A stretch of DNA of 64,000 bases, from contig WUUP01000008.1 in NCBI GenBank assembly GCA_009833045.1, positions 171,921 to 235,920 of the forward strand, written 5' to 3'. This DNA comes from Saprospirales bacterium GYS_P2D. Its GTDB lineage: Bacteria; Bacteroidota; Bacteroidia; Chitinophagales; Saprospiraceae. Below, piece by piece: positions 57,736 to 64,000 of the stretch. The notes beneath the pieces were generated by a model. That model saw nothing but the letters and a program-made list of their open reading frames with translations. It was not told where the DNA came from and searched no databases. Within the stretch, counting starts at the first letter, position 1; each line of letters begins with the position of its first letter. The position numbers were made by a program, and so were the translations under genes.

Positions 57736-59493
57736 ATGAATGAGGCAAGGTCACATAGGATCGAAATCGAAAAGGTAGAACATCGAGGAGAAACTCGGAT
57801 AGCACTCCGATGTGGCTATGATACCGAGCTGATAGCTCAGATCAAACGCATCTCAGGAAGGAAGTATAGCCGCACCATGCGCTGCTGGCATATACCCTAC
57901 ACACAGATCGCCTATCATGAGCTGCGACAGATGCCATATGAGATCATCATAAGAGATCCCTCTACTCTCGGGACCGGGCCGGCTGATCTATCGCCCGATA
58001 CTACCGACATATCTGCCAACGGTGAATCCAGGGCAGAGACCCACTCAGTACGTGAAAACGACAGCAAAAATCACAAGGCTGACATAAATGGGGGCAAAAG
58101 CCCATTGAACTCGATCTCCTATAATGCTCAAAAGTTCATACTCGCTATCGACTATCATCCAGAGACTGTAGCATGGATCAAGTCGCTACCAGGTGCCTAC
58201 TGGCACAAGGATGAAAAAAAATGGCTCTGCAATGCATCTCTGGAGACACTCGATCTGCTCCAGAGTCGCTGGTCATGCTGGAGTACTACAGACTATGACC
58301 GGATCAAAGGACTGATCTCGCAGTCAGCATCTGTGCCTACTATCTATCTAAGCATGACACCTGATGATACGGATCGTGTGCGTATCCAGAGCAATGGTAT
58401 CTCACAGCTACCTCAAGCGGTCAAATCACTGTCTGATAGAAAGTATGACAAAGAGGCAAAAGCATGGGTGATACCCTATCACTATCAGGTGATCAGGAGA
58501 CTCATCGTACAGCTCAAGACGGATGGATATCGGGTCTATGATCACACGGCTAATCCCTCTAAGATCGCTCAACAAAGCCGTGACTGGAGTAAGCGGAAGC
58601 AATACATACTCGATAAAGCGCCCGCAAGTCATCAGCCTCAGCTATCCGCCTATCTCGACGCTCTCATGGCTGAGCGGTATAGCTGGCGCACGATCCAAAA
58701 CTATACAGGATCGCTCATCAGATATCTGCGTGCTACAGTAGAGCAGGGACGTCCCTATGACTCGCATGACACTGTCAAGGGGTATATATATGAGGTCGCT
58801 GTGAGTGACGTGAGCTTTCAGACGATCAATAGGGTACAGAGCGCCCTGAGAGCCTATTTTGATAAAGTAGAGCCGGATAAAAAGATTCAATTTGATAAGA
58901 TACCTGGGCCTCGACGTCCTAAGACCCTACCCAAAGTCATGAGCAAGGGCGAAATCGTAAGACTACTCGCTCAAGTCAAAAACAAGAAGCATATAATGAT
59001 GCTCTATCTCGCATACGGTAGCGGCCTGAGGAGTGGAGAGATCCTATCCCTCAAGGTGCATGATATCGACTACGAAAATCAGCAAATATGGATCCGATCA
59101 GGTAAGGGTAACAAGGATCGAGTAGTGCCGATGCCGCACTCGATCATCATATTGCTCCGAGACTATGTGCTCACGTACCAGCCAAAGTATTGGCTATTTG
59201 AAGGACAAAAGAAAAACACGCCATACAGTAGTACCAGTCTGGGGCTGATATTCAGGAGGGCTCGAGCTAAGGCAGGACTGCCAAAACACTATACGCTCCA
59301 TTCTATGAGACATAGCTACGCCACTCATCTGCTCGATAGCGGTACCGACGTCCGTCTCATCAAGGAGCTACTCGGGCATAAAGACATCAAGACCACCCTG
59401 ATCTACACGCATATCACTGATCAATCACTGAACAAGGTAAAGAGTCCTTTGGACGAATTATTAGGAAAAACAGATCAAAAACATGGGAATTGA
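57736..59493 (+). CDS. Integron-type tyrosine recombinase with three N-terminal HARP-like repeats
   Basis: 585 residues. Residues 25-60, 137-170 and 225-255 are three repeats with exact spacing K-x6-[Y/W]-x6-W (Lys37/Tyr44/Trp51, Lys149/Trp156/Trp163, Lys230/Tyr237/Trp244), as in the HARP domain of SMARCAL1, which binds forked or partly single-stranded DNA. A SAM-like core-binding domain follows (about 298-380), then the catalytic domain: Arg432, Lys457, His522, Arg525, His548, Tyr557. The ending KSPLDELL echoes IntI. The Lys-His interval is 65 residues, as in XerD (72) and far below IntI1 (106), so the IntI-specific insertion is absent. Codon and base use look like the host. A Xer-like or transposon recombinase is the alternative. 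Confidence 0.85.
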   Translation: MNEARSHRIEIEKVEHRGETRIALRCGYDTELIAQIKRISGRKYSRTMRCWHIPYTQIAYHELRQMPYEIIIRDPSTLGTGPADLSPDTTDISANGESRAETHSVRENDSKNHKADINGGKSPLNSISYNAQKFILAIDYHPETVAWIKSLPGAYWHKDEKKWLCNASLETLDLLQSRWSCWSTTDYDRIKGLISQSASVPTIYLSMTPDDTDRVRIQSNGISQLPQAVKSLSDRKYDKEAKAWVIPYHYQVIRRLIVQLKTDGYRVYDHTANPSKIAQQSRDWSKRKQYILDKAPASHQPQLSAYLDALMAERYSWRTIQNYTGSLIRYLRATVEQGRPYDSHDTVKGYIYEVAVSDVSFQTINRVQSALRAYFDKVEPDKKIQFDKIPGPRRPKTLPKVMSKGEIVRLLAQVKNKKHIMMLYLAYGSGLRSGEILSLKVHDIDYENQQIWIRSGKGNKDRVVPMPHSIIILLRDYVLTYQPKYWLFEGQKKNTPYSSTSLGLIFRRARAKAGLPKHYTLHSMRHSYATHLLDSGTDVRLIKELLGHKDIKTTLIYTHITDQSLNKVKSPLDELLGKTDQKHGN

Positions 59494-59510
59494 TCAGATA
59501 TAAACAAGTT
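59494..59510 (+). other. attI-like junction at the 3' end of the integrase gene
   Basis: The first cassette begins at GTTGGCTGTA (59508), 14 bp after the integrase TGA. The integrase side reads AACAAG before TT, so recombination would be G^TT at 59508/59509. An imperfect direct repeat, CAGATCAAAAACA at 59471 and CAGATATAAACAA at 59495, could be accessory binding sites; the attI boundary to the left is unknown. Confidence 0.65.
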
Positions 59511-59552
59511 GGCTGTAATAAGAAAAAATAAACGAAAGTATAAATCAAGTAT

Positions 59553-60338
59553 ATGGATTGGATAAATAATAACTCAGATGCTATTTTGGCGGGAATTATT
59601 TCATCTGGAATTGTAGTCTTACTTCAAGTATTTATAAATACTTTCTCACAAGTAATAAGTTACCTGATAACAAATCGATTAAGGCTTCATAGAGTCTTAA
59701 GAATGAAAAATGGAGAGACAATCTATGTAACATCTGGTATTATACCTAATTTGCAAACTACAACAGCAGGAGGAGCGACACAGCCAATTGATAGAGCTGC
59801 AACAATTAAAGGACCCGATAGTAAAGCTGCGAATCTTATAATCCATACACTTCAAGACATTTATGAAGAATCTGTTGTGCGTCATATTTATACAGGACAA
59901 AATGACAAAGTGCAAACAAGTCATGAAAATATATTTACAATTGGTGGACCTAAGTATAATGCGACAACAAAACTTTTCATGTCCCATTTGCCTGATGAAG
60001 TTAAATTCGAACAATCAGGAAAACTAAAAGTATATGATAAAGAATATACAAAAGATACGACCAATAATGTGGATTACGGCTTAATTGCAAAAATTAAAAA
60101 TCCATATATGGATGGAAAGTATATTTATATCGTAGGGGGATGCGGAACTTATGGTGTATTGGCTGCTTCTTATGCTATCTCAAATCAAAAATACTTTCCT
60201 AAATTAAAAAAACAACTACTAAATAAAATGGGCTGGTTTTGGTTTTCAAGAAGAAAAGAATTTGTTGCGGTAATAAAATGTGAAACGAATAATAATGAAG
60301 TTGGTAACCCTAAAATAGAATTATTAAAAAAATTTTAG
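59553..60338 (+). CDS. Cassette-borne membrane-anchored protein of unknown function
   Basis: 261 residues, first gene of cassette 1. One membrane segment near the N-terminus (about 11-35), then a cytoplasmic alpha/beta domain with NIFTIGGPKYNATTKLFM, VDYGLIAKIKNPYMDGKYIY and IVGGCGTYGVLAASYAI. The two Gly-rich turns and DYG...NP pattern look like a nucleotide-binding Rossmann-type sensor, but I cannot name the family. AT-rich, unlike the host genes. It precedes a hydrolase by 3 bp. Confidence 0.7.
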   Translation: MDWINNNSDAILAGIISSGIVVLLQVFINTFSQVISYLITNRLRLHRVLRMKNGETIYVTSGIIPNLQTTTAGGATQPIDRAATIKGPDSKAANLIIHTLQDIYEESVVRHIYTGQNDKVQTSHENIFTIGGPKYNATTKLFMSHLPDEVKFEQSGKLKVYDKEYTKDTTNNVDYGLIAKIKNPYMDGKYIYIVGGCGTYGVLAASYAISNQKYFPKLKKQLLNKMGWFWFSRRKEFVAVIKCETNNNEVGNPKIELLKKF

Positions 60339-60341
60339 TTT

Positions 60342-61097
60342 ATGATAATCACGAACGATGGTCACAATGTGACTTATATTGAAAAAAGAGTTGACTCAAG
60401 TTCACCTTTAATTATATTTTCTCATGGAATAACTGTAAATAAATCAGAGAATGGTTTATTTGAGGAATTTGAAAAATATTTCAATAAAGAAGGTCTAAAT
60501 ACGATAAGATATGATTTTCGAGGGCATGGTGAATCTCCAATAAAAGACCAAGATTGTACTATAATGGGTATGATTCAAGATTTCATTTCAATATATAAAT
60601 ACTCAGAATTGCACTATGATAAGGTGTTTTTAATTAGTACAAGTTTTGGTTGTAGTATAAACCTTCTTGCACTAAATGAATTAGCTACACCAAAACTTAA
60701 AAAGATTATTTTTATTAATCCTGTTGTAGATTACAAAAAAACTTTTACTAAAACTAAACTGCCTTGGGCAAAATCTTTTTTTCCGCAAACAGGAATGCAA
60801 GATGCAATTGCCAATTCTCCACTAATTGTTGGCAGTAGAAAATTTAAATTAGGCTCAAAAATGGCTATGGAAATGTATTATTTAGAGCCAGAAATGGTGA
60901 CATTGAGTTCAAAGATTTCAATGGATTATCACCATGGCACATTAGATACTATGGTGCCTTATGAATCAACCGTTGAGCTTTACAACAAATCAAAGTGCAA
61001 TTCTAAGTTATATACTTATGAAGCATCTCATGGTATAAAAGAAGAACGTGAGACTTTAATTTTAAATGTCAAAAGAAGCATTAAAGAAGCATTATGA
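60342..61097 (+). CDS. Cassette-borne alpha/beta hydrolase (S33/serine-aminopeptidase-like)
   Basis: 251 residues. IIFSHGITVNKSENGLFEEF is the oxyanion region, TIRYDFRGHGES follows, ISTSFGCSINLL carries the nucleophile Ser, HGTLDTMVPYES the acid Asp and ASHGIKEERE the His: a complete triad. Middle gene of cassette 1, AT-rich. Its stop overlaps the next start by 4 bp. Substrate unknown. Confidence 0.82.
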   Translation: MIITNDGHNVTYIEKRVDSSSPLIIFSHGITVNKSENGLFEEFEKYFNKEGLNTIRYDFRGHGESPIKDQDCTIMGMIQDFISIYKYSELHYDKVFLISTSFGCSINLLALNELATPKLKKIIFINPVVDYKKTFTKTKLPWAKSFFPQTGMQDAIANSPLIVGSRKFKLGSKMAMEMYYLEPEMVTLSSKISMDYHHGTLDTMVPYESTVELYNKSKCNSKLYTYEASHGIKEERETLILNVKRSIKEAL

Positions 61098-61747
61098 CGT
61101 ATGTTCATCCAACATCTACCATAGGACAAAACGTAATTCTTGGCAAGAATATATATATAGGACCACATTGCATAATTGGATTTCCAACGTACAATGAACC
61201 TATTGAATATTTACAGAATCAAGAATTCAAGAAAACAATTATCGGTGACGGAACAAGAATACTTGGTCACTCTGTAGTTTGCGAGAATTCATCATTAGGA
61301 AAAAACTGCAATTTAGACTACTTCACTTATGTTGGAAGCGATACAAAGATTGGAACAAATGTTAACTTAAAATATGGTGCAAAAATTTATTCACGTGTCT
61401 TAATTGGGAATTATAATTCAATTTCTGGATTTATTGCGAACGATTGCATTATCGGAAATAATTCAGTTATTCAAGGTAACTTAATCCATATATTTAAAGA
61501 TGTTAATTATGGGACTCCAGAACCAGCACCTAAAATTGAGGACAATGTTTTTATTGGAATGAATGCAATGATAATTGGAGGTATAATTATAAAAGAAAGG
61601 TGCTATATCGGTTCTTGTGCCGTAGTAACAAAAACTACAGAAAAAGGAAAATTGTATGTTGGAAATCCAGCAATTGAAAAAGGAGATGCACCAAATCCTT
61701 ATAAAATATCACCCTGGAAAAAGAATACTACAGCCAACAAAGGCTAA
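61094..61747 (+). CDS. Cassette-borne left-handed beta-helix acyltransferase
   Basis: 217 residues of hexapeptide repeats: VHPTSTIGQNVILGKNIYIG, NCNLDYFTYVGSDTKIGTNV, then FIGMNAMIIGGIIIKERCYI and AVVTKTTEKGKLYVGNPAIE. This is the LpxA/WbbJ-type transferase fold that adds acetyl or acyl groups to sugars or related compounds. Last gene of cassette 1; its stop falls inside the attC stem region. Confidence 0.82.
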   Translation: MTYVHPTSTIGQNVILGKNIYIGPHCIIGFPTYNEPIEYLQNQEFKKTIIGDGTRILGHSVVCENSSLGKNCNLDYFTYVGSDTKIGTNVNLKYGAKIYSRVLIGNYNSISGFIANDCIIGNNSVIQGNLIHIFKDVNYGTPEPAPKIEDNVFIGMNAMIIGGIIIKERCYIGSCAVVTKTTEKGKLYVGNPAIEKGDAPNPYKISPWKKNTTANKG

Positions 61748-61798
61748 AACGGCAAGTGGGGCTATGCGCCCCACCTGCGTTTAGCCAGACCGTTGTCG
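61732..61798 (+). other. attC-like site of cassette 1
   Basis: 67 bp between R'' AGCCAAC (61732-61738) and R' GTTGTCG (61792-61798). Stem 1 GGCTAAA/TTTAGCC (61742-61748, 61780-61786), stem 2 GTGGGGC/GCCCCAC (61756-61762, 61768-61774), loop TATGC. Geometry from AAC to GTT: 3-7-7-7-5-7-5-7-5. Confidence 0.85.
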
Positions 61799-62516
61799 GT
61801 CATTAGAAAAAAGAAAAAATGAAACTATATGGAATAAGTGGACTTGGAGCAGATAAAAGAGTTTTTAAATATCTAACTCTTGACTGCACACTTATTCCAA
61901 TAGAATGGATTGAACCTTTAAAAAACGAGACAATAGAAAATTATTCGATTAGGTTTTCAAAATCAATTAATAGAAAAGAAGATTTTGGAGTTATGGGAGT
62001 GAGTTTCGGTGGATTAATTGCAGTTGAAATCAGTAAAAGACTTAATCCCAAATTAACGATTCTGATTTCTTCAGCAGAAACCAAAAAGGAATTAAGGACA
62101 ATTTATCGAATAATCGGGAAGACAAAATTGCTCAAAATTATACCACAGTTTCTTTTTGACCCGCCACGAATTATCGCAAATTGGATTTTTGGAGCAAAAA
62201 AGAAGAAATTGTTGAATCAGATTTTAGATGATACAGATTTGAAATTTGCAAAATGGGCAGTTAATGAATTGACAAATTGGAAGAACAATGAAAAGTTATT
62301 AAATCCGATACTGAAAATTGGAGGAGTTAACGACAAATTGATTCCTCCGAAAAAAGATGAGAATCAAAAGCTAATTGATGAAGGAGAACATTTTATGATT
62401 GTAGATAAAGCGGATGAAATTAGTCGAATAATAAATAATGAAATAAAAAAACGAACCGACAACAATGTGTAAAATGTTCATAGTGGCTAAACGCCACTAC
62501 GCCATTTACACTAAAC
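61792..62516 (+). mobile_element. Cassette 2
   Basis: 725 bp. First bases GTTGTCGGT; the R'' end of its attC (62455-62463, ACCGACAAC) is their exact reverse complement over nine bases. Confidence 0.85.
61819..62472 (+). CDS. Cassette-borne alpha/beta hydrolase
   Basis: 217 residues. KLYGISGLGADKRVFKYL at the start, GVMGVSFGGLIAVEISKRL with the nucleophile Ser, and DEGEHFMIVDKADEI with the terminal His. The acid residue is less certain (IGGVNDKLIPP). AT-rich. The last codons AAC-AAT-GTG-TAA lie inside the attC, so the R'' box and first stem base encode the C-terminus. Only gene of cassette 2. Confidence 0.8.
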   Translation: MKLYGISGLGADKRVFKYLTLDCTLIPIEWIEPLKNETIENYSIRFSKSINRKEDFGVMGVSFGGLIAVEISKRLNPKLTILISSAETKKELRTIYRIIGKTKLLKIIPQFLFDPPRIIANWIFGAKKKKLLNQILDDTDLKFAKWAVNELTNWKNNEKLLNPILKIGGVNDKLIPPKKDENQKLIDEGEHFMIVDKADEISRIINNEIKKRTDNNV

Positions 62517-62523
62517 GTTAGTC
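62457..62523 (+). other. attC-like site of cassette 2
   Basis: 67 bp: R'' CGACAAC (62457-62463), R' GTTAGTC (62517-62523). Stem 1 GTGTAAA/TTTACAC (62467-62473, 62505-62511), stem 2 TAGTGGC/GCCACTA (62481-62487, 62493-62499), loop TAAAC. Geometry identical to attC 1, sequence different. Confidence 0.87.
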
Positions 62524-63238
62524 TCAATTTGAATGAAGAAAAACAAAGTCATAGCAATATTGATTGGAATATCCCTAATAGCATACTTGGCAATTCATGC
62601 ACTTGAATTCAAAATAAAGATAAACTCACCTTATTGGACAGTATTTGCCAAATTAGGATTAGCATTATTGATAACAATTGCTCCTCTTACATTAAAGGTG
62701 AAATGGACAAACAGGATTGGACTGTCAACCTTGATGGCACTAATTTTAGTGTTTCTTATCCCCAAATTAGGAATCTGGAATATTTCATTAAATCAATATG
62801 TGAACAATGAGTCTGACAAATACGAGAAATATATAGTTCTACACAATAATGAATTAGATCAACGAGTCAAATATTTGTCATGTAGAGACGGTGAACTTTT
62901 TACCAAACCAAAATTAGACGAAGAATCCTCAAATGCATCTGTATGTGAATCATTTGAAAAGTTAGATGTTAATGAAGTGTTCATCAATCAAACTAATTCA
63001 AAATATCTGTTTGCAATGCATCGATTCATTGACAATGGCTATGGCCTTCTATATACAAAAGAGAGTTTTGTTCGCGAAGAATTTTATAAAGAAAGAGTAA
63101 ACGGACTTCAACTAACTTCAATAAAGAAAGTAAGAGAAAATTGGTATTACGTTACCTTTACATAGAATGAAAACTGAGACTAACATGTGATATGAGATCA
63201 AACTTGCTATCGCTGCGTCCGCTCCATATCACAGAACC
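62517..63238 (+). mobile_element. Cassette 3
   Basis: 722 bp. First bases GTTAGTCTCA; the R'' end (63175-63184, TGAGACTAAC) is their exact reverse complement over ten bases. Confidence 0.85.
62533..63165 (+). CDS. Cassette-borne membrane protein
   Basis: 210 residues. Three hydrophobic segments at about 5-22, 33-52 and 58-80, then a soluble domain of about 125 residues with two Cys (LSCRDGELF, VCESFEKL) that could form a disulfide outside the membrane. No family recognised. AT-rich, single gene of cassette 3, starting 16 bp after the recombination junction. Confidence 0.6.
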   Translation: MKKNKVIAILIGISLIAYLAIHALEFKIKINSPYWTVFAKLGLALLITIAPLTLKVKWTNRIGLSTLMALILVFLIPKLGIWNISLNQYVNNESDKYEKYIVLHNNELDQRVKYLSCRDGELFTKPKLDEESSNASVCESFEKLDVNEVFINQTNSKYLFAMHRFIDNGYGLLYTKESFVREEFYKERVNGLQLTSIKKVRENWYYVTFT

Positions 63239-63245
63239 GTTATGT
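63178..63245 (+). other. attC-like site of cassette 3 (atypical)
   Basis: 68 bp: R'' GACTAAC (63178-63184), R' GTTATGT (63239-63245). Outer stem GTGATATG/CATATCAC (63187-63194, 63225-63232), 8 bp. The inner stem seen in the other three sites is not visible, and the AAC-GTT interval is 54 rather than 53. Confidence 0.75.
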
Positions 63246-63880
63246 ATGATTAAAAAATGAAAATCGAAATACTATATAAAGACAGATTTGAAAATAGTGG
63301 TCAACTATTAATAGATAAGTTGACCAAACAGGAAAAATACGAATTAATTGATTTTAGTGATGTACTTAGAAGGCATATAAATAGTGAATCTGAATTAGGA
63401 CTGAAACTTCAATCCTATCTAAATAAAGGACAATTAATACCCGCAGAATTGACAAATGAAATTATGACAACCGAGATCAATCAAATTCAAACAGATAAAG
63501 TTCTTCTAAAGAATTACCCTAAATCCAAAGAGCAAATTGAACTATTCATAGAATTCTGCAAAGAAAAAAAGATAGAACTAAAAAGAGCTTGGCATATGGT
63601 GAGTTTAAACGTACTTGCGAATCTTGAAAAAATACCGAAGCATTCGAAAATGGCAGCTAAATACAAATCACATGAATATATAGAAATGAACCATGAAAGG
63701 AGTAATAAAGCCAATAGTGAATCAATTCAGGAAATTGCAAACTATTGTGAAACGATAACTTTTGAAAGTGAATCGTATGGTGTAAATATTGAAAACGATA
63801 AGATTCGAATAAGTAACCATACATAACAATGTACATGACGATCATGTCGGCTAAACGCCGCCACGCCGCATGTACTAGAC
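63239..63880 (+). mobile_element. Cassette 4
   Basis: 642 bp. First bases GTTATGTATG; the R'' end (63818-63827, CATACATAAC) is their exact reverse complement over ten bases. Confidence 0.85.
63257..63826 (+). CDS. Cassette-borne hypothetical protein
   Basis: 189 residues, soluble, mainly helical, Lys/Glu/Asn-rich. Visible pieces: MKIEILYKDRFENSGQLLID at the start and EFCKEKKIELKRAWHMVSLN in the middle. I do not recognise it. AT-rich. Its stop TAA (63824-63826) lies in the R'' box of attC 4. Confidence 0.6.
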   Translation: MKIEILYKDRFENSGQLLIDKLTKQEKYELIDFSDVLRRHINSESELGLKLQSYLNKGQLIPAELTNEIMTTEINQIQTDKVLLKNYPKSKEQIELFIEFCKEKKIELKRAWHMVSLNVLANLEKIPKHSKMAAKYKSHEYIEMNHERSNKANSESIQEIANYCETITFESESYGVNIENDKIRISNHT

Positions 63881-63887
63881 GTTGAAC
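63821..63887 (+). other. attC-like site of cassette 4
   Basis: 67 bp: R'' ACATAAC (63821-63827), R' GTTGAAC (63881-63887). Stem 1 GTACATG/CATGTAC (63831-63837, 63869-63875); stem 2 TGTCGGC/GCCGCCA (63845-63851, 63857-63863, one mismatch); loop TAAAC as in attC 2. Same 3-7-7-7-5-7-5-7-5 geometry. Confidence 0.87.
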
Positions 63888-63908
63888 AAACCGCACCCTG
63901 ATAAAGGC

Positions 63909-63973: not shown

Positions 63974-64000
63974 TGGAATCCAGACAGCCGATCAATACCC
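63974..64000 (+). CDS. Start of a gene cut by the window edge
   Basis: ATG preceded by an A-rich leader and a promoter; only nine codons (MESRQPINT) are visible. No function can be given. Confidence 0.4.

Follow-up and report, generated by a model that had tools for sequence, protein, structure and literature searches.

Gene content of the locus

We analysed a 64,000-nucleotide (nt) stretch of contig WUUP01000008.1 (positions 171,921 to 235,920) of Saprospirales bacterium GYS_P2D, hereafter called the window. Its last part encodes a tyrosine recombinase, followed on the same strand by a putative attI site, four gene cassettes with their attC sites and the start of a fifth cassette (Table 1). 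These features point to an integron-type gene-capture platform whose integrase is devoid of the insertion (I2) found in IntI, the integrase of classical integrons. A first-pass annotation of this DNA had proposed a tyrosine recombinase gene, a GTT junction beside its 3' end and four consecutive cassettes with attC-like hairpins. All of these were found, and the fifth cassette start was added to them.

GTT triplets are present at positions 59508, 61792, 62517, 63239 and 63881, the first of them 15 nt past the stop codon of the recombinase gene. In integrons, the attC site of an excised circular cassette is put together again from the start and the R'' arm of that same cassette, and these two sequences must therefore match. 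The R'' arms near 61738, 62463, 63184 and 63827 match the starts of their own cassettes over 10, 9, 10 and 10 nt, respectively, whereas the 12 wrong start/R'' pairings of the four cassettes all match over 3–4 nt only. The boundaries of all four cassettes fit excision as circles cut at G/TT (the slash marks the cut), and the six open reading frames (ORFs) listed in them are all directed away from the integrase gene. The four attC sites scored 19 to 22.6 with a hairpin detector, and an extra hairpin within attC1 scored 17.9. When this 7-kb region was shuffled five times by mononucleotides, each shuffle gave 0 or 1 match at a score of 19. None of 300 random anchors placed in positions 1 to 55000 of the window gave rise to a cassette chain. 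A weak match to a microRNA family, below its gathering score, lies over an ORF at positions 61823–61905 and was taken as chance.

Table 1. Features of the locus and related sites elsewhere in the genome. Positions are those of the window unless a contig (C) or locus (L) is named; aa, amino acid residues.
Feature	Position	Strand	Basis
Insertion-less tyrosine recombinase (integrase), 585 aa	57736..59493	+	ORF list, Pfam/NCBIfam profiles, 33-row alignment
HARP-like repeat 1, aa 8-72	57757..57951	+	Pfam HARP 35.4 bits; strand-strand-helix-strand-strand-helix in model
HARP-like repeat 2, aa 124-179	58105..58272	+	Same element order in model; repeat-3 profile E 4e-10; no Pfam HARP match
HARP-like repeat 3, aa 202-270	58339..58545	+	Repeat profiles and structure model
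SAM-like core-binding domain, aa 304-376	58645..58863	+	Pfam
Catalytic domain, aa 401-563	58936..59424	+	Pfam
Site of the insertion in IntI: 11 unaligned residues, aa 487-497	59194..59226	+	Ends of local alignment
attI: inverted repeat GATCAA-N11-TTGATC, then AGATATAAACAA, then G/TT	59472..59510	+	Genome pattern search
Cassette 1, three ORFs	59509..61792	+	Start vs own R'' 10 nt
ORF, 261 aa, no Pfam match at E 0.01 (cassette 1)	59553..60338	+	ORF list, Pfam
ORF, 251 aa, alpha/beta hydrolase (cassette 1)	60342..61097	+	Pfam
ORF, 217 aa, hexapeptide-repeat acyltransferase (cassette 1)	61094..61747	+	Pfam, NCBIfam
attC1	61729..61800	+	Start/R'' match, hairpin detector, strand folding
Cassette 2; ORF 61819-62472, weak alpha/beta hydrolase-type matches	61793..62517	+	Start vs own R'' 9 nt
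attC2	62454..62525	+	Start/R'' match, hairpin detector, strand folding
Cassette 3; ORF 62533-63165, 210 aa, no assigned function	62518..63239	+	Start vs own R'' 10 nt
attC3, missed by covariance model	63175..63248	+	Start/R'' match, hairpin detector, strand folding
Cassette 4; ORF 63257-63826, 189 aa, ADK profile match	63240..63881	+	Start vs own R'' 10 nt; Pfam
attC4	63818..63889	+	Start/R'' match, hairpin detector, strand folding
Fifth cassette (start), ORF-less, 361 bp where complete, cut by contig end	63882..64000	+	Repeated-copy search
attI-like copies away from the integrase (window's genome, G000)	C5:14092, 17288, 19610; C6:793; C11:821802; C21:440623; C22:748, 137738; C23:6361, 18747, 51263, 311048; C28:23155
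361-bp ORF-less cassette, reference copy	L181:2154-2514

An integrase without the IntI insertion

The protein matches the Pfam Phage_integrase profile with 130.7 bits, which identifies it as a tyrosine recombinase. The catalytic residues of such enzymes, here R432, K457, H522, R525, H548 and Y557, are invariant across the 33-row alignment. As proposed in the first-pass annotation, there is no room for the IntI insertion. The phmmer alignment with the IntI chain of structure 2A3V consists of two pieces, the first one running to residue 486 of the recombinase (188 of the chain) and the other starting at residue 498 (243), leaving 11 residues where the IntI chain has 54 (positions 189–242). The distance between the GKGxKDR and HxxRH motifs is 66 residues, as compared with 107 in six IntI proteins (L069, L071, L078, L082, L083 and L088) and 71–73 in the products of four Xer genes taken from host genomes.

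Profile searches place the recombinase over the cut-off of neither the integron integrases nor any Xer family. Its top NCBIfam match is XerA (NF040815), with 199.5 bits for a cut-off of 220, and the integron integrase profile TIGR02249 gives 196.4 bits in two stretches, under the cut-off of 265. The scores with the XerC/XerD profiles TIGR02224 (168.9 bits; cut-off 335.15) and TIGR02225 (160.9 bits; cut-off 329.6) are also below threshold. The genome of the window has its own XerD, over the cut-off, and a second Xer-type gene. A Foldseek search with the model of the recombinase had as its top match the IntI of 2A3V, level with the XerA of 5HXY (E 9.6e-15 each). In the phylogenetic tree, the Xer rows form a separate branch with a support of 100, and the recombinase is outside it, within an assemblage that also holds IntI. 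An Undinarchaeales contig (L031) codes for two insertion-less integrases, one of which groups next to IntI with a support of 95.

The first-pass annotation had also described three HARP-like repeats in the N-terminal region. Pfam HARP (PF07443) recognizes a single stretch, residues 25–53, with 35.4 bits for a gathering cut-off of 25, which places repeat 1 over it; the relation of repeats 2 and 3 to HARP comes from repeat profiles and the structure model. AlphaFold2 predicted three repeats of the strand-strand-helix-strand-strand-helix type, with confidence scores (pLDDT) mostly of 82–93 and a disordered stretch behind the first, their relative placement being uncertain (predicted TM-score, pTM, 0.42). 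The repeat profiles match one another, and that of repeat 1 matches all 15 N-termini tested, 12 of which are from array-bearing integrases. At least one profile matched at 31 of 53 loci with insertion-less integrases in genomes, as well as at 27/27 loci of the window's own family and 19/19 Winogradskyella-genus loci described below, some of the family loci possibly being near-copies of the proteins that built the profiles. No match was found in six IntI, four Xer, 14 insertion-less integrases from IMG/VR and 129 shuffled sequences, and one of six recombinases with a motif gap of 70–72 was matched. Against the sequences of solved structures, the sole match of the N-terminus is the HARP domain of SMARCAL1 (4O66; E 0.77), and a fold search returned XPB and HARP as weak matches. 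HARP and XPB domains are found in enzymes working on branched DNA, so that the repeats may plausibly have a part in reading hairpins.

attI and its copies across the genome

The junction of the first cassette lies within AGATCAAAAACATGGGAATTGATCAGATATAAACAA/GTT and overlaps the last integrase codons. As in integrons, the entry point attI adjoins the integrase gene, here at its 3' end. The 39-base attI pattern occurs 14 times in the genome with at most 3 mismatches, i.e. 13 times away from the integrase locus, whereas the same search with the pattern read backwards yielded no copy. The arms of the inverted repeat reach 9 nt in several of the other copies. The copies are conserved over ~45 bases ahead of G/TT, and conservation ends there, which would be expected for a site but not for the relic of a gene. 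A stretch complementary at 9 of 10 positions was found within 5 kb of 13 of the 14 copies, as compared with 85 of 480 random GTT triplets. In a stricter test that asked for AAC and a stem, a cassette with an attC site was present behind 10/14 copies versus 18/720 controls (p about 9e-14). In addition, an ORF of at least 90 codons in the same direction starts no more than 106 nt from the site in 13 of 14 cases, a count that has no control. From these sequence features, one integrase appears to have many entry sites at its disposal in this genome.

Related sites were found in other genomes. At family loci, an attI-type motif is present behind the integrase stop codon in 21 of 31 cases, as compared with 33 of 620 control windows. 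Among eight family genomes searched, the attI-related pattern occurs three times in G204, four times in G243 and once in three others, and it is absent from the remaining three. Two of the three copies in G204 sit behind integrase genes, and two loci of this genome (L295 and L313, with integrases of 610 and 395 residues) have the attI site in common but not the start of the cassette. The four attI-like copies in G243 (L299, L347, L349, L351, L352) end in AAG/AT instead of AAG/TT. Five genomes were searched for an attI site of the Winogradskyella genus: three have a single copy, a fourth has two and the last has none.

Further attC sites and a repeated cassette

As suggested in the first-pass annotation, the host genome was scanned for more sites with a covariance model, built from 12 short attC sites. 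It revealed three strong extra sites of 44–60 bits near the ends of contigs C6, C22 and C25, and four weak ones of 22–29 bits; three attC sites of the window are part of the model, and their own matches were not counted. Several attC sites are followed by the same ORF-less cassette of 361 bp, whose longest open stretch has 61 codons. Its start, GTTGAACAAAC, differs from its R'' arm at 1 of 11 positions in copies with an intact arm. Of seven left junctions that could be read, five are G/TT and two are degenerate, and the four readable right junctions have four different followers. With 344 bp of this cassette as a query, we obtained 14 matches in the genome, mostly partial, and full or partial copies are found in contigs C1, C6, C22, C23 and C25. 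Base 64000 of the window is the last base of its contig, C27, in a genome of 4.95 Mb and 28 contigs. Contigs C6, C22, C23, C25 and C27 end inside the 361-bp cassette, and the array thus stops with the contig because the contig end falls inside a repeated cassette.

Related integrases and cassette mobility

For the comparison with relatives, 80 of at least 589 candidates from genome contigs and 80 of at least 567 candidates from IMG/VR were kept. Arrays are present downstream of insertion-less integrases in Rufibacter (L018), a member of the Flavobacteriaceae (L022), Flavobacterium aciduliphilum (L028), a member of the Sphingobacteriales (L029), Algibacter onchidii (L039), GWF2 (L043), Winogradskyella ursingii (L048) and Seonamhaeicola (L050). 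Integron arrays thus occur beside integrases without the insertion, which is held to be necessary. In the genus of W. ursingii, whose integrases are kin with one HARP repeat, 20 of 68 genomes have a match at an E value of 1e-100 or better (23 matches, 20 of them examined and 19 with a readable integrase). Twelve of these 19 loci have 2–14 chained cassettes, two have one and five have none, two of the latter with almost no flank. The first cassettes of these arrays begin 39–82 nt past the integrase stop codon. Loci L246 and L247 of this genus have arrays of 11 and 14 cassettes. When the 3' flanks of relatives were shuffled, one cassette was found in 7 of 136 cases and two in none; 320 further anchors within 20 loci, some of which hold arrays, gave 36 chains, 33 of them of a single cassette.

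Cassette contents vary between closely related loci of these one-HARP integrases. The integrases of L244, L245 and L247 are 93.6–96.5% identical and their attI sites have at most one difference in 45 bases, and they are followed by three different first cassettes. L240 and L241, with integrases 95.8% identical, have one cassette in common (97.6% identity), in third position in one and in second position in the other, and this is the only shared pair among all chained cassettes compared. The first-pass annotation had named two outcomes that would speak against an integron, the same cassette order everywhere in related genomes and a grouping with ordinary phage or transposon integrases whose relatives lack attC. 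Neither was seen: in the one-HARP kin of the Winogradskyella genus, the group in which this comparison was made, integrases 94–97% identical with near-identical attI sites carry different cassettes, and the relatives have attC arrays at the same 3' position, with the recombinase outside the Xer branch in the tree.

As in integrons, the R and L arms of the attC sites pair with each other, and the bottom strand is favoured. On folding with DNA parameters, the bottom strand was more stable than the top strand for all four sites of the window (mean difference, -3.7 kcal/mol), for 57 of 60 sites of the Winogradskyella genus, mostly 118–124 nt long, and for 12 of 13 sites of L018, L028 and L043. The bottom strand was favoured in 25, 41 and 51% of random windows, respectively. 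All four bottom-strand folds of the window have one unpaired T in the 3' arm past 7–8 outer pairs. In classical attC sites, IntI recognizes the bottom strand with its extrahelical bases, with T-N6-G in the most easily excised sites, according to the available text of PMC3053210. Nine of 12 aligned attC sites come from L018; across this alignment, both sides are changed in 7 of 14 stem pairs, a number reached in 5 of 500 shuffles.

Of 398 genomes in the family of the window, 64 have an integrase match at 1e-60. Leaving the window aside, there are 67 such matches, of which we examined 35; 27 of these have a readable integrase, mostly of 534–612 residues, with one of 395. With the addition of G019, G016 and G028, 38 loci were available for the analysis of contig ends. 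The contig ends no more than 500 nt from the 3' end of the integrase gene in 17 of them, as compared with one for the 5' end; for the 3' end, the count rises to 26 at a distance of up to 1.5 kb. The nearer contig end is on the 3' side in 35/38 loci (p 7e-8). Such a clustering of contig breaks is what repeated arrays would cause.

Some other arrangements were found. In two Bacteroidota loci (L038 and L046), the two-cassette chain given by the detector is located 5' of the integrase. An IMG/VR locus, L112, has 24 attC-like hairpins on one strand over 19.7 kb, beside a relative of the recombinase.

Interpretation and alternative explanations

From these comparisons, we interpret the locus as an integron-type gene-capture platform, with a probability of about 0.85. 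The most likely role of the insertion-less recombinase is to integrate circular gene cassettes, and to excise them again, at the attI site beside the 3' end of its own gene. Its substrate would be the folded, single-stranded bottom strand of attC, and the HARP-like repeats may take over, at least partly, the grip on the hairpin that the I2 helix provides in IntI. The recombinase is probably active today in this host. More tentatively, and at somewhat less than even odds, the locus may represent a second class of integrons in which HARP-like repeats have replaced I2 as the reader of folded attC and one integrase serves at least 14 scattered attI sites, the chromosome being a distributed integron.

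Several observations weigh against a working capture platform, including some that bear on the particular alternatives considered below. The 27 readable family loci have one chained cassette in seven cases and two or more in none, which makes weak support for arrays in the family, and among the seven family loci whose 3' flank is 2 kb or longer, three show one cassette, one of them weakly. Two genomes of the same genus as the window, one of which is only 58% complete, have no integrase match at 1e-60. Three W. ursingii-genus loci with 13–15 kb of flank have no chain starting from attI; one of these genomes harbours three linked attC sites further down. It is possible, although we lean towards doubting it, that the insertion-less catalytic core alone is enough for attC recombination and that the HARP-like repeats do other work, for instance by attaching to the attI inverted repeat or by locating single-stranded DNA at forks. 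Four IMG/VR loci (L096, L114, L121 and L146) have insertion-less, HARP-less integrases with arrays of 3–11 cassettes on their 5' side, and another one (L093) has such an integrase with three cassettes on its 3' side. The motif gap of these five proteins is 60–66 residues, and in the first four loci 21 of 22 attC sites fold more stably as the bottom strand, although 70% of random windows there do so too; the array of the IntI locus L083 is also on the 5' side. HARP cannot be the only way around the insertion, because integrases devoid of both adjoin arrays, and the absence of the repeat from all 14 insertion-less IMG/VR integrases agrees with a self-sufficient core. Either there is thus more than one way to do without the insertion, or the core is enough by itself. 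Conversely, among insertion-less integrases whose genome contigs extend for 2 kb or more on the 3' side, 3' arrays are present beside 9 of 16 with HARP repeats and 0 of 11 without them (Fisher p 0.003, uncorrected for kinship). This result, together with the match of the repeat profile to all N-termini tested, speaks against a self-sufficient core.

That the array is a relic of past capture by an integrase that no longer works seems unlikely. Some dispersed attI sites have degenerate downstream ends, e.g. CGTCC for CGTT, as do two of the seven left junctions of the 361-bp cassette, and contig breaks hide most of the array. However, the catalytic residues are intact in an open frame of 585 codons, the four cassettes of the window still match over 9–10 nt, and the ORF-less cassette keeps G/TT at five left junctions. 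We consider it very improbable that a classical IntI encoded elsewhere moves the cassettes and that the recombinase is a bystander, even though arrays without a neighbouring IntI (CALIN) are described in the available text of PMC9024848. No IntI over the TIGR02249 cut-off was found in 16 host genomes, most of them drafts or of unstated completeness, and a search of the window's genome at 1e-30 gave no match. The 21 matches listed in the 16 genomes all end at profile positions 177–181, ahead of the insertion. The 14 control genomes of this search gave no match, so that it has no positive control of its own; L083 reaches 454 bits with TIGR02249, indicating that the profile works. Furthermore, attI overlaps the 3' end of the recombinase gene, and a first cassette lies shortly behind this type of recombinase at 14 of the 19 readable W. 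ursingii-genus loci, two of them with a single cassette. Chance hairpins beside a Xer-like or phage integrase were ruled out. Single hairpins do arise randomly, at most one per shuffle of 7 kb, and one-cassette chains were found in 7/136 shuffles, but the start/R'' matches, the 300 random anchors without a chain and the cassettes behind 10 of 14 attI copies are incompatible with this explanation.

Comparison with known systems

Compared with IntI integrons (classes 1–3 and chromosomal), the proposed platform has the same G/TT boundaries, the same R''-L''-L'-R' attC sites with a bottom-strand bias, cassette ORFs that point away from attI, an attI site that adjoins the integrase gene and an SPL motif near the C-terminus. 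It differs from them by an integrase without I2 and with a HARP-like N-terminus, an array located 3' of the integrase gene in the same direction, an inverted repeat in attI and many attI copies in a single genome. The usual geometry of classical integrons is a divergent array on the 5' side of the integrase, and in some known integrons the integrase is oriented as the cassettes. With XerA, XerC and XerD, the recombinase shares a catalytic domain without insertion, XerA being its top NCBIfam match; in contrast, it is over no Xer cut-off, Xer proteins form a separate branch and the host has its own XerD. The HARP domain of SMARCAL1 (4O66) and the N-terminal domain of XPB (2FZ4, 6P4F) are parts of other DNA enzymes, whereas the repeats are fused here to a recombinase, with a fold match below the level of certainty.

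The following statements on the literature refer to the available parts of the cited papers. The I2 insertion is described as necessary for cassette capture, as conferring single-strand recombination and as found in no other protein, intermediates being lacking (PMC7790495). A subgroup of 'integron-like' tyrosine recombinases has been reported in which the insertion is not fully conserved, yet the insertion is called essential for integron function (PMC8138268), and a link between the insertion-less members and cassette arrays was not met in that text. More generally, we found no link of insertion-less integrases to cassette arrays in the literature available in part. Phage integrons (PMC9892861) and archaeal integrons (PMC9668308) also have attC cassettes outside the usual hosts; for the archaeal ones, possession of the IntI-specific domain was a condition for accepting an integrase (PMC9668308), and no mention of this domain was found in the available text on phage integrons (PMC9892861). 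Earlier surveys reported intI genes in Bacteroidota (PMC2426708, PMC9668308), and the 2022 IntegronFinder survey names one complete integron for Bacteroidetes proper, in Salinibacter ruber. IntI proteins are told from other recombinases by their specific domain, as in IntegronFinder (PMC9668308, PMC9024848), and insertion-less integrons would therefore be filed as orphan attC arrays or missed. Platforms of the type proposed here make it possible to test how folded attC can be read without I2 and whether IntI originated from such a recombinase, and they would suggest that Bacteroidota have a gene-exchange system that has gone largely uncounted.

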